NCBI RefSeq assembly: GCF_000242595.2
Contig: NC_017098.1
Span: 248,001 to 312,000, forward strand
Length of the DNA: 64,000 bases
Reading direction: 5' to 3'
Source of the DNA: Spirochaeta africana DSM 8902
Lineage (GTDB): Bacteria > Spirochaetota > Spirochaetia > DSM-27196 > DSM-8902
The translations under genes and the position numbers were made by a program. Of this stretch, positions 31,195 through 46,385 are shown in pieces. The notes under the pieces were generated by a model. The model did no database searches. It saw only the letters and a list, made by a program, of their open reading frames with translations, and was not told the DNA's origin. Numbering within the stretch: the stretch's first letter is position 1; each line of letters opens with the position of its first letter.

Positions 31195-33621
31195 TTAGGA
31201 ACCTCCAAACTCTTTTACCAGCAGCGCCATCTCGCGCAGACGCCGCTCGATCTTTCCATTCAGGGTTTCGGGGGGGTAGTACCCCTTCCTGTTCGGAACA
31301 CCAGCCTCCATCCCTGTTAAAATCTCGAGCCCCTGATCAATTGTGTCAATAGCATAGATGTGAAAAAATCCGTTTTGCACCGCTTCCTGGACCTCCCGGG
31401 ACAGAATCAGCATGTCGAGGTTGCGTTTCGGGATAACAACCCCTTGCTTGCCGGTCAATCCGAGTTTGCGACAGATATGAAAAAACCCCTCCACCTTTTC
31501 CGAGATACCACCGACCGGCTGTATCTCGCCGGTCTGGTTCACCGATCCGCTGACGGCAATGTCCTGGCGCAGTGGTACCCCGCTGATTGCAGACAACAGC
31601 ACGTAGATCTCGGTAGACGAGGCCGAGTCGCCATCTACCTCGGAGTAGGACTGCTCAAAGGCGATGCTGGCCCGGATGTTCTGCGGAAAGTCCTTGGCAT
31701 ATTTGGTCTGCAGGTAGCCTTCGATGATATAGATCCCCTTGTCGTGGATCTCGCCGGACAGCCCGGATTCACGTTCAATATTGATGATACCCTCGGATCC
31801 CGGGGCAACCCGAGCCGTGATCAGCATCGGGCGACCAAAGGCATAGTAGCCCCGGTCAAGGATTGCCAGGCCGTTGATTCGCCCGACTGCGCTGCCCTGC
31901 AGATCGATCAGCAGTTCGCCGCTCTGGATCTGCTCATCGATCTTTTCCTCCGGCAGGTTGGCGAAAAACCGTCGCTCATTAAAAGCCCGGTGGATGACCT
32001 CGGCGGTTATCCGTTCGCAACTCATCTGCCCCGCCCAGTAATTGGCCTCGCGCAGCAGGTCGGCAATCAGCGAGAACTGGGTGCTTATGTGGTTACGGTG
32101 CTCGGCCAGGCGAACCCCGTACTCGATAACGGCTGCCATACCGTCCGGGGAGGTGGGAAAGAGCTTTTCCTCGCTGCAGATCATCCGCGAGAAGGCGATG
32201 TACTCACGGATGGCCTGATCGTTGCGCGGCATAACCGAATCGAACTCGGCCGGCACCTTGAACAGTTTCTGGAAATCCTCGTCGATGTTGTACAGCAACT
32301 CATACAGCCCGTCGGTGCCCATCATGATTACCTTGAGGTGAATCGGGATCGGATCCGGCTTGAGTGCCGGGCCGGGCAGCCCGTAGGGACCGGGGTGATT
32401 GCGGATTTCGGTTACGCTGTCCTCCAGAGCCCGCTTCAACCCGTTCCAGACATCCTCCTGGTGCAGGACGTCCTCGGCACGCAGGATCAGAAAACCGCCT
32501 GATGCCTGCAGCAGCGAACCGGCTCGCAGCAGCTGGTGCATCGGTTTGGGTTCTGCCGACTCCTGCTGCGACTCGAGTACCCCGAACAGCTTGGCGGAGT
32601 CGGGATTGGTCTCGAACACCACCGGAGCACCCTCGGTCTCGCTGTGATCTACCACGATATTGATGCTGTAGCGGGCAAAGAAGCGTTCGGCGGTGTTTTC
32701 CTCGTCCTCTGGCTGACTCAGGGTCGTTTGCAGGTCGGTCTTCATTGCCTCTATGTGTGCCTGGATCGGCTCGTCCTGGTAATCTGCCGACAGGCGCTCG
32801 AACTCGGCAGCGATCAGCGGCTGCAGCACGGTGCGCCGCAGCGTGTCGATATCCTCTTCCATGCTGATCCGGTTGTCATGGATGGCCTGGAACAGCTGGT
32901 TCATTTCATCGGTAAAGCGGAAGTACTGTTCACGCATCTGCTGGAAATCCTGCTTGGCGATGCTGCCGGCCTTTACCCTGTTCTGCAGCTCGTCAAAGTC
33001 GATCACCTCGCCGTCGATTACCGGAAAGATGTCCGGCATCGATTCGTCCTGATCCATCAGGCGTACCAGTTGGAACCCATGCTCTTCCAGGCGGGTTTCA
33101 AAGCTCTTCAGCAGCTCGCTGTCCTTGCCTTCGGTCGAGATGATAATGCTGTCGCGTTGATCCCTGAACGGCTTTTTCTTGAACAGTTCCTGGCTGCGGC
33201 TGCGCAGGCGCTGGAGGACCTCTTTCAGTCGCCGCTGGAAGGTCTTTGCCTCTCCCTTGGTAAAGCGCAGCAGCCGGGGTGCCTCATCGTTGTCAAAACG
33301 GGCAGCATAGGCCAGGTCCAGCACCCGCTCGGTATTCGGGGTATGCGATTTCAGGATCTTGGTAATGGCCGTGCGCTTCCCGGTTCCTGGCAGCCCGGTA
33401 GCGAATACATTGTAGCCTTTGGCATCGATAGCGATGGCCATCTCGATTGCCCGCAGGGCACGCGGCTGCCCGATAATGTGAAACTCATCGGTCGTTGCAC
33501 GAATGCCTTCGACATAGTCAGGGGATATACTGAAATGTACCCGCTCAGGCGGTATAAGATATCGATCGGGACCGCTGGCGTCCTGAGTGTACAGATCTTT
33601 GTTGCGTGGTTGTTGTGCCAT
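31195..33621 (-). CDS. Lon-family ATP-dependent protease (AAA_32 type)
   Basis: 808 residues. Walker A is GLPGTGKRTA (Lys82). A long helical insertion spans about 170-330. The C-terminal Lon protease domain has the Ser666 (GDSASSTE)-Lys709 (ISEKVEGF) dyad, 43 residues apart as in E. coli Lon. The order and the N-terminus without a LAN domain match the Lon-like YcbZ/LonC-type enzymes. The substrate is unknown. A TACTAT -10 box lies seven bases before ATG. It leads the operon with HDOD and OsmC, suggesting protein-quality or stress control. Confidence 0.92.
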   Translation of the reverse strand: MAQQPRNKDLYTQDASGPDRYLIPPERVHFSISPDYVEGIRATTDEFHIIGQPRALRAIEMAIAIDAKGYNVFATGLPGTGKRTAITKILKSHTPNTERVLDLAYAARFDNDEAPRLLRFTKGEAKTFQRRLKEVLQRLRSRSQELFKKKPFRDQRDSIIISTEGKDSELLKSFETRLEEHGFQLVRLMDQDESMPDIFPVIDGEVIDFDELQNRVKAGSIAKQDFQQMREQYFRFTDEMNQLFQAIHDNRISMEEDIDTLRRTVLQPLIAAEFERLSADYQDEPIQAHIEAMKTDLQTTLSQPEDEENTAERFFARYSINIVVDHSETEGAPVVFETNPDSAKLFGVLESQQESAEPKPMHQLLRAGSLLQASGGFLILRAEDVLHQEDVWNGLKRALEDSVTEIRNHPGPYGLPGPALKPDPIPIHLKVIMMGTDGLYELLYNIDEDFQKLFKVPAEFDSVMPRNDQAIREYIAFSRMICSEEKLFPTSPDGMAAVIEYGVRLAEHRNHISTQFSLIADLLREANYWAGQMSCERITAEVIHRAFNERRFFANLPEEKIDEQIQSGELLIDLQGSAVGRINGLAILDRGYYAFGRPMLITARVAPGSEGIINIERESGLSGEIHDKGIYIIEGYLQTKYAKDFPQNIRASIAFEQSYSEVDGDSASSTEIYVLLSAISGVPLRQDIAVSGSVNQTGEIQPVGGISEKVEGFFHICRKLGLTGKQGVVIPKRNLDMLILSREVQEAVQNGFFHIYAIDTIDQGLEILTGMEAGVPNRKGYYPPETLNGKIERRLREMALLVKEFGGS

Positions 33622-33648
33622 ACCCCCTATAGTACCGGATTGCGGGCA

Positions 33649-34677
33649 TCATGGGCAGAGGTTGTGCAGCAGGCGCAGCAGCTGTGTCCGGGTGTGTGCA
33701 CCTGTTTTCCGGTATATGCTGGAGATGTGCGTTTTTACGGTGTTTACCGACAGCCCCAACTGAGTAGCAATCTGTTCGTATGACCTGCCCTGCACAAGTA
33801 AAGGGATCACATCCCACTCCCGATTGGTGATTCGCGTCAGGAATATCTCTGTGTGCTTGCAGTCAAGGTGGTTTTCTGTTGATCGATTCAGCAACGACTG
33901 CGTTCTGTTGATGTTGGCAGCCGCTGTCTGCTCCCAGATCTCGTATACACAGGTGCAGTCGCCGTCGGGATTCAGCTGCGGCAGAGCGGTTACCCGGATA
34001 CGCATACCCAGCTCAGGGATATACAGCACCCGGCTGATTTTTCTTCGCGTCGCCATACCGTCCATGGCAGGGTAACCCGGCCAGCAGGAATCCCTTCCCA
34101 GGAGTTGGTAGAGGGTGCGCCCATGGCTGAGCTCCTTGCCGCCAAACATTTCATATCCGGTGCTGTTCAGCTGCACCACCTGCAGATCCGGATTCAGCTG
34201 CGCAACGGGGGTGGCAATGGAGTCAAGGATTGTCTCGAACAGCTGCAGCTGATGATTCGCGGTAGCCAGGTTTTTTTCCAGCTGTACAGCCCTGCGGTGC
34301 AGGCAGTGCAGCTGCAAAAGGGTATCGATCAGCCGGCGCAGGTGGAAGGCGTCGATGTGGGGATGGATATAGGCATGGACAAAGTTCTCTGAAATAACTC
34401 CGTCGGCACATTCCTGATCCCGGGCGGCACCATTGCTGTGCACCAGCAGGCTGATCGTCTGGAAGCGTGAATTCAGTTCCCGGGCAAGCTGCAAGCCGCT
34501 GCAGTGGGTGTCCAGGTGCAGTGGGGCTATCACCGCCTCGATGTCGGACTGGCTGCTGATGATCTGTATTGCCTCGTCCATGGAGGTGGCGCTTACTACC
34601 GGCAATCCTCCGGCCAGGGCGGTTCTCCACAGGTATTTGGTTTCCTGGTGTCCATTATGAAGCAGAAGTGCCTTCAT
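33649..34677 (-). CDS. LuxR-type transcription regulator with pseudo-receiver and PAS-like domain
   Basis: 342 residues. The N-terminal 120 look like a receiver that has lost the phosphorylated Asp (VIAPLHLDTHCSG). A PAS-like domain follows (FETILDSIATPVAQLNPDLQVV). The last 70 residues are a LuxR helix-turn-helix (NREWDVIPLLVQGRSYEQIATQ, SVNTVKTHISSIYRKTG). The start at 34677 overlaps the stop of the upstream receiver gene (ATGA). The last 15 codons lie inside a 45-bp sequence repeated exactly at 35295-35339. Confidence 0.87.
   Translation of the reverse strand: MKALLLHNGHQETKYLWRTALAGGLPVVSATSMDEAIQIISSQSDIEAVIAPLHLDTHCSGLQLARELNSRFQTISLLVHSNGAARDQECADGVISENFVHAYIHPHIDAFHLRRLIDTLLQLHCLHRRAVQLEKNLATANHQLQLFETILDSIATPVAQLNPDLQVVQLNSTGYEMFGGKELSHGRTLYQLLGRDSCWPGYPAMDGMATRRKISRVLYIPELGMRIRVTALPQLNPDGDCTCVYEIWEQTAAANINRTQSLLNRSTENHLDCKHTEIFLTRITNREWDVIPLLVQGRSYEQIATQLGLSVNTVKTHISSIYRKTGAHTRTQLLRLLHNLCP
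33654..33698. repeat. 45-bp direct repeat, copy A
   Basis: Identical to 35295-35339. It covers the codons for THTRTQLLRLLHNLC-like residues at the C-terminus of the LuxR gene. The two copies bracket the LuxR/receiver pair. Confidence 0.9.
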
Positions 34678-35213
34678 GTAGGGTTCCTGTTGGTGGTCTG
34701 CCGCTGCAAAAAATGTAACGCCGCTTTGAGATCCTCGAGTCCGACCGGCTTCTCCAGAAACCCGTCGAAACCGGCCTGGCGACACTGCTGCCCGACATGC
34801 GCAGCCGAGTATCCGGTGATGGCTATGCACAAGGTAGTAATATTATGGTGCGGCGGCAATTGATGCTGCTGTTCATATGCTCGCAGCCAAGAGACCAGAT
34901 CGCAGCCGTCCAGGTGGGGCATGTTCAGATCCAGCATTGATACCTGAGGCCGGTGCTGCAGCCAGCAGCTTCGAGCTGCTTCGCCATCGCTGGCGGTGAC
35001 AATCCGGCAGTCGGGCAGGAGCCTGCGGGTAAAATGGGCAAGAGTTCGCCGGGACAAGGGCTCGTCATCAGCAATCAGAACCGTGAGCCCGTCCGGCAGA
35101 GGTTTTGGTCTGTACTCATCGGCGGGTGCTTGTAACGGTGAGTTACGCGCACTCGGAACGTGGCTGCTGCACATAGCTATGGTTTCCTGCGTAATTTTAG
35201 CCTCTGTGGACAT
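34674..35213 (-). CDS. Single-domain response regulator
   Basis: 179 residues with a receiver domain at about 43-170. The acidic pair is in IADDEPLSRR, the phospho-acceptor Asp in MLDLNMPHLDG and the Lys in FLEKPVG. About 40 polar residues precede it. It has no output domain; the LuxR protein encoded immediately downstream (ATGA overlap) has DNA-binding but no phospho-acceptor, so the two may work as a split regulator. No kinase is adjacent. Confidence 0.88.
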   Translation of the reverse strand: MSTEAKITQETIAMCSSHVPSARNSPLQAPADEYRPKPLPDGLTVLIADDEPLSRRTLAHFTRRLLPDCRIVTASDGEAARSCWLQHRPQVSMLDLNMPHLDGCDLVSWLRAYEQQHQLPPHHNITTLCIAITGYSAAHVGQQCRQAGFDGFLEKPVGLEDLKAALHFLQRQTTNRNPT

Positions 35214-35294
35214 TTTCGTGTATCACCTGAAAACAAGGGGTGATGCAGGCAATGCCCCCCGGGCTAACCCGAACAGGTGAGGGGCCCCGAAACT

Positions 35295-35339
35295 GGCAGA
35301 GGTTGTGCAGCAGGCGCAGCAGCTGTGTCCGGGTGTGTG
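35295..35339. repeat. 45-bp direct repeat, copy B (remnant of a luxR 3' end)
   Basis: Exact copy of 33654-33698. Read on the minus strand it still encodes THTRTQLLRLLHNLC. The flanking bases (to about 35355) are alignable with the LuxR gene only with indels, so it looks like the decayed end of a second luxR-type gene. No intact reading frame remains around it. Confidence 0.75.
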
Positions 35340-35376
35340 TGCCGGCTGTTTCAGGTAGGCGCGGCACGGTGCTTGC

Positions 35377-35385
35377 TGGTATACT
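35377..35385 (+). promoter_or_regulatory. Extended -10 promoter of the Nif3 gene
   Basis: TGgTATACT (35377-35385) with no good -35 box, followed by seven bases and ATG 35393. An extended -10 can work without a -35. It predicts a leaderless transcript. Confidence 0.5.
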
Positions 35386-35392
35386 GGCGGGT

Positions 35393-36154
35393 ATGACGGT
35401 ACAGGAACTGGATACAGTGCTGCGCACCTGGTTTGCGCCCGAGCAGTTCGGGCGGATTGATCGTTCAATGAACGGGCTGCAGGTGGGGCGGCAGGACAAA
35501 CAGGTACAGCGACTTGGCACTGCGGTAGACGCCTGTCTGGAGACATTTCGTCGCGCGGCCGAACAGGATGTGGATATGCTGTTCGTGCATCACGGGCTCT
35601 TCTGGGGGATGCCGATTGCGGTAACCGGGGAGCACTATGCACGGCTTGAACTGCTGATGCAGCAGGATATTGCCCTGTATGCCATGCACCTCCCACTGGA
35701 TCAGCATCTTGAGCTGGGAAATAATGCGGTAATGGCACAACAGCTTGGACTGCAGGATATACGCCCGTTCGGGCGCCTGAAGGGCACCGAGATCGGGGTT
35801 CGGGGAGATCTTCCCGAATCGGTCGGGCTTGATGAGGTGCGTGAGCGGTTGTTCGGCAGTCGGGAAAATCCGCTTGGTGTGCTGCCCTTCGGGACCGACA
35901 CGATCCGCAGTGTGGGGCTGATTTCCGGTGGTGCCCCGTTTGAGGTAGGGCAGGCAATCGAGGCTGGCCTTGATCTGTATATCACCGGCGATGCCAATCA
36001 TGTGGTATATCATATGGCCCAGGAGGCTGGAATCAATGTAATATTCGGCGGACATTACGCTACCGAGACCTGGGGTGTTCAGGCAACAGGGCGGAAGCTT
36101 GCCGATGAGTTCGGGATCGAGCATCACTTTATTGATGTCCCGACGGGACTGTAA
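35393..36154 (+). CDS. Nif3-like dinuclear metal-centre protein
   Basis: 253 residues of the Nif3/GTP-cyclohydrolase-I-type-2 family. The metal ligands are in FVHHGLFW and GGHYATETWGVQA. DANHVVYHMAQE and GLQVGRQD are further family motifs. These are cytoplasmic hexamers with a two-metal site whose true substrate is unsettled. ATG 35393 is preferred; the frame remains open upstream, but that stretch runs through the repeat remnant. lspA follows after 11 bases, so they form an operon. Confidence 0.9.
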   Translation: MTVQELDTVLRTWFAPEQFGRIDRSMNGLQVGRQDKQVQRLGTAVDACLETFRRAAEQDVDMLFVHHGLFWGMPIAVTGEHYARLELLMQQDIALYAMHLPLDQHLELGNNAVMAQQLGLQDIRPFGRLKGTEIGVRGDLPESVGLDEVRERLFGSRENPLGVLPFGTDTIRSVGLISGGAPFEVGQAIEAGLDLYITGDANHVVYHMAQEAGINVIFGGHYATETWGVQATGRKLADEFGIEHHFIDVPTGL

Positions 36155-46308: not shown

Positions 46309-46385
46309 TGACGCCAGTTTTGTTGTTCGGGGCCTCAGGGGGCTGCTGTCGCTGTCTCAGGGGGCAAACAACAAAACTGGCGTCA
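46309..46385. repeat. Perfect 19-bp inverted repeat with 39-base centre
   Basis: TGACGCCAGTTTTGTTGTT (46309-46327) and its exact complement (46367-46385). The centre carries CTCAGGGGGC twice (46334-46343, 46356-46365). No T run follows on either strand, so it is not a typical terminator. It lies in the 5' region of the EamA gene. The flanks CTGAC and CTAAC are nearly a direct duplication, as a small mobile element would leave. Confidence 0.85.

Follow-up and report, generated by a model that had tools for sequence, protein, structure and literature searches.

The window, that is, the whole 64-kb stretch of DNA that was analysed, carries a pair of regulatory genes lodged between lonB and nif3 (Table 1). 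The pair is formed by a stand-alone receiver gene and a luxR-type gene, and the stop codon of the former overlaps the start codon of the latter (ATGA). The three genes lonB, luxR and receiver run on the minus strand, and divergently from them nif3 is followed by lspA on the plus strand. In the LuxR product the GerE helix-turn-helix was recognised well above the Pfam cut-off (3.7e-15; 55.7 bits vs. a cut-off of 23.5), whereas neither PAS_8 (19.3 bits) nor Response_reg (14.4 bits) reached its own. The structure of LuxR modelled from the single sequence was poor (mean pLDDT 51.9) and supports no conclusion. The gene pair is bracketed by two copies of a direct repeat, copy A inside luxR and copy B in the 179-bp spacer of the divergent receiver and nif3 genes.

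Table 1. Features of the lonB-nif3 locus, with positions counted from the first letter of the window.
Feature	Positions	Strand	Description
lonB-like AAA protease gene	31195..33621	-	left flank of the insertion site
Candidate -10 box TACTAT	33629..33634	-	7 bp before the lonB ATG; read from the sequence; outside the insert
luxR-type regulator gene, 342 aa	33649..34677	-	weak receiver-like N-terminus, weak PAS, GerE/LuxR helix-turn-helix
Copy A	33654..33698	-	final complete luxR codons, encoding HTRTQLLRLLHNLC, at the end of the GerE domain
Putative inserted segment, 1686 bp	33654..35339	.	both copies at its ends; removal leaves a spacer of ordinary size
Stand-alone receiver gene, 179 aa	34674..35213	-	Response_reg 9.6e-20
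Copy B	35295..35339	-	non-coding; 81 bp from the start of receiver, on its upstream side; 53 bp from the start of nif3
Candidate -10 box TATACT	35380..35385	+	7 bp before the nif3 ATG; outside the insert
nif3 (DUF34/NIF3) gene	35393..36154	+	right flank of the insertion site

As the initial annotation had reported, the two copies were identical in 45 of 45 bp. They share one orientation, with 1641 bp from start to start. No other exact direct repeat in the window reaches 18 bp, and the longest exact repeat found in 30 first-order Markov shuffles of the window measured 19 bp. When the whole genome (one contig, 3,285,855 bases) was searched at up to 3 mismatches, exactly two copies of the 45-mer were recovered and the reversed pattern, used as control, gave 0 matches; the search for further copies proposed in the initial annotation thus returned no third one. 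Under the same tolerance the 45-mer was absent from the 45 further genomes compared from the order. That the repeat was created by an error of assembly is hardly credible: nothing speaks in its favour except the general hazard that repeats pose, and against it count the single contig of this genome (99.98% complete), the length of ordinary reads, which exceeds 45 bp, and the differing flanks of copies A and B.

Copy A is genuine luxR coding sequence. When its codons were left out, the GerE match scored 45.3 instead of 55.7 bits and extended to profile position 44 instead of 56 (of 57), and therefore the direction of descent is from a luxR to copy B. The assignment of copy A to the 3′ end of luxR, as well as the description of copy B as lying past the 5′ end of the receiver gene and reading the luxR residues on the minus strand before diverging, were both borne out. 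After these residues the reading of copy B continues as QFRGPSPVRV, upstream of and outside any recognised gene, and the minus-strand frame around it gave no Pfam match. On the 3′ side there was no similarity between the flanks of the two copies and the homology stops abruptly. On the 5′ side the similarity beyond the 45 bp was marginal (TACCTGAAACAG.. vs. TACCGGAAAACAG.., upstream of copy B), with an extension score of 4 that was equalled in 16 of 500 shuffles and at 25 of 1000 random sites of the window, the first base being forced to mismatch in the random-site control.

This marginal similarity, together with the same orientation and the same codons in copy B, could be taken as what is left of a second luxR that once stood upstream in tandem and decayed down to its 3′ end. 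We regard this origin as unlikely, considering that random sites equal the extension at the rate just given, that zero decay within 45 bp sits beside adjoining bases almost without similarity, and that nif3 starts just 53 bp away from copy B. Moreover, the strains with luxR copies in tandem that the initial annotation suggested looking for did not appear among 46 genomes of the order, 392 sampled genomes of the phylum or 394 sampled genomes of the class.

Copy B is most likely inert, without a function of its own. Its location in a divergent regulatory spacer is what would be expected of an operator, a leader RNA or a part of a promoter serving receiver-luxR or nif3, and yet a functional element of this kind is highly improbable. 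The leader folded no more stably than its shuffles (z of +1.2 and +1.3) and had no match in Rfam at E up to 1, so that a structured leader or an Rfam RNA was rejected. A scan of 33500-35500 for the sigma-70-type promoter consensus gave no match; the same scan also misses the candidate -10 boxes of Table 1 because it requires both hexamers. Finally, copy A has the identical sequence, and there it is dictated by what luxR has to encode.

We compared the locus across 46 genomes of the order including this one, which alone represents its family in the set, the other 45 belonging to other families. In all 39 of the other genomes having lonB and nif3 on one contig the two genes were arranged head-to-head; in the remaining 6 of 45 they could not be paired (G010, G014, G023, G034, G042, and G043). 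After correction for unaligned N-termini, the spacer between them measured about 30-301 bp (median 98) in 31 of the 39 relatives, from families f3-f8, compared with 1771 bp in the window genome, where it is occupied by the receiver and luxR genes. Since these 31 relatives have no room for the gene pair between lonB and nif3, receiver and luxR are an insert in this lineage. The comparison with empty sites that the initial annotation had called for was therefore successful as regards the empty site itself, and failed as regards the single 45-mer expected there: none was present in the 20 empty sites examined out of the 31, where the best ungapped match covered 20-24 of 45 positions, the level of shuffles, nor in any of the 45 genomes. 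This absence is weak evidence, considering that the relatives with an empty site belong to other families and have diverged too far for a non-coding 45-mer to persist.

In the 8 genomes of family f2 the lonB-nif3 spacer was also long (1015-1200 bp in 8/8). In the two of these loci that were read (L029, 515-1501; L042, 515-1498) it holds one gene for a regulator with a PF04198 sugar-binding domain, and in both the gene reads towards nif3. The spacer has gained regulators at least twice. Around the regulator inserted in family f2 the only repeat was a 16-bp tandem, in one of the two loci examined, and hence family f2 and the window have no insertion signature in common.

The lengths also fit the copies being the ends of the insert, without amounting to proof. 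Subtracting the putative segment from the spacer leaves 85 bp, a length that 9 of the 31 empty spacers do not exceed; recombination between copies A and B would leave 130 bp, and 19 of 31 are of that length or less. The argument from 85 bp is permissive, as 130 or 211 bp also fall within the range of 30-301 bp. It is conceivable that the cassette is excisable, such that recombination across the 45 bp removes 1641 bp and restores a normal lonB-nif3 divergent promoter of 130 bp, so that cells could switch the regulator pair embedded in this promoter in and out although the pair has no recombinase of its own; we consider this very improbable.

Both edges of the site carry a candidate -10 box. Directly before the ATG of nif3 the best TATAAT-like box had 6 of 6 matching positions in 8 of 20 relatives, 5 of 6 in 3, 4 of 6 in 7 and fewer in 2; for lonB, 15 of 20 relatives had a -10-like box matching at 5/6 ahead of an ATG taken as its start. 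In many relatives the lonB and nif3 boxes (in the window, within 33622-33634 and 35380-35392) precede the ATG by about 5-9 bp. From the sequences, this arrangement suggests that leaderless transcripts of lonB and nif3 are conserved across the order. As the candidate boxes adjoin both ATGs and, as in the relatives, lie outside the repeats, the cassette would be located between two old promoters.

With respect to the origin of the cassette, LuxR relatives extending beyond the DNA-binding domain were found in its own genome only, among 46 genomes of the order (1e-12), among 392 sampled genomes of the phylum (1e-14) and among 394 sampled genomes of the class (1e-12), with up to 5 candidates scored per genome in the phylum and class searches; the search of genome contigs gave no LuxR relative. 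The best matches of the receiver elsewhere were about 30% identical, and several of them were parts of larger open frames. Given that no full-length LuxR relative and only distant receiver matches were obtained, the cassette is lineage-specific at this sampling. Neither a donor site nor tandem copies were found, the genome holding two copies of the 45-mer and the searches no full-length LuxR relative. Several mobile origins were considered and set aside. Arrival by plasmid or phage was rejected, as tblastn at 1e-10 against 72,556 plasmid and 50,697 phage records gave no match in either set. A site-specific element whose integrase uses the 3′ end of a gene was rejected too: between the copies there is no transposase or integrase, and the two genes there match the receiver and LuxR families only. 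The segment has no perfect inverted pair listed as terminal repeats, the 45-bp repeats being direct. A target-site duplication of pre-existing intergenic DNA is unlikely, as roughly 10 bits of the GerE match come from copy A. We found no published account of this locus in a non-exhaustive search of the literature.

Taking these results together, we favour, with a probability of roughly 0.55, that the repeat is an inert scar left behind when the cassette was inserted or duplicated by recombination or repair. The two-gene cassette, receiver and then luxR, would have entered a short divergent promoter region between the -10 boxes of lonB and nif3, and it would be terminally redundant, with the 45 bp of the luxR 3′ end at the lonB edge (the genic copy A) and again at the nif3 edge (copy B, a non-coding stub). 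The cause was most likely a recombination or repair event which inserted or duplicated the cassette. One possible path is the integration of a fragment or circle coming from a tandem or circular receiver-luxR unit; another would be a tandem duplication whose extra unit was later lost except for 45 bp. A terminally redundant insert is expected from the integration of a tandem or circular unit, from a reduced tandem duplication or from ectopic short copying, and it is the class of scars linked to insertion or duplication, all paths taken together, that is favoured. We also counted for it the abrupt end of homology on the 3′ side and the presence of two copies with no third in the genome. The exact identity of the 45 bp speaks for a recent event or homogenisation; the chance of zero differences over that length is about 0.10 at 5% divergence and about 0.009 at 10%. 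Between the two interpretations offered in the initial annotation, the recombination scar is the one we favour, in view of the empty site in 31 of 39 relatives, and the remnant of a second luxR, to which nothing outside the 45 bp clearly points, is the less likely one.

Several considerations count against the scar of insertion or duplication, among them that the searches gave no donor and that the argument from 85 bp is permissive. Simple homologous integration predicts the 45-mer in the empty site of a near relative, and it was seen in 0 of 20 sites, a weak objection given that those families are distant. In addition, a separate and later copying of 45 bp, unlinked to the insertion, would look alike. 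Here an error of replication or repair after the arrival of the cassette would have copied the luxR end to a place 1.6 kb away. One small event suffices for this, the 3′ limit of the homology is sharp and no larger remnant is visible; on the other hand, the place of the copy in the outer flank of the cassette, towards nif3, is left unexplained, and by eye there was no clear microhomology at the edges. We take this templated duplication as a possible origin, clearly less probable than the scar.

Among systems described elsewhere, 10-18% of bacterial variable segments are flanked by direct repeats (PMC2884548). Like them, the present segment exists in one genome, is absent in others and has direct repeats at its base; those repeats, however, are mostly shorter than 30 bp and were compared between strains of one species, while here the repeat has 45 bp and other families were compared. 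Restriction-modification units can insert with a long target duplication (Nobusato et al. 2000, as described in PMC3874152). That case resembles our locus in that long direct repeats enclose a gene unit and relatives have the site empty, and differs in that the repeat there comes from the target, whereas here it comes from the inserted gene and 0 of 20 empty sites carried the 45-mer. For transposed genes of Arabidopsis, genic, non-transposon direct repeats at the flanks have been described and a circle model starting from tandem duplicates has been proposed (PMC2869330). The flanking repeat is genic in both cases, copy A being luxR coding sequence, but that case concerns a plant genome and target homology was seen there in a sister species, which was not seen here. 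The locus records the entry of a regulator gene pair into a conserved divergent promoter, and the lonB-nif3 spacer, filled separately in another family by a different regulator, offers a small test case for the gain of regulators at promoters.

The repeat itself is ordinary debris of genome rearrangement. In 20 stretches of 20 kb each (400 kb) from the same genome, setting aside short-period arrays and one masked run, repeats of at least 30 bp were present in one stretch, which held a three-copy dispersed family of 145 nt. The 45-bp pair is unusual for its own genome, yet as a class it is not unique. The three copies of the 145-nt repeat (L122, 1461-1605, 4154-4298, and 6639-6783) are 79-84% identical, and the gene lying amid them presumably encodes a product resembling a DEAD-box helicase, to judge by its motifs. 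A perfect inverted repeat with 19-bp arms and a 39-bp centre was observed at 46309-46385 of the window. Allowing up to 2 mismatches, the genome contains 21 occurrences of the arm, mostly in facing pairs of near-constant spacing, and the element is a member of a dispersed palindromic (REP- or MITE-like) family of about 8 paired copies.
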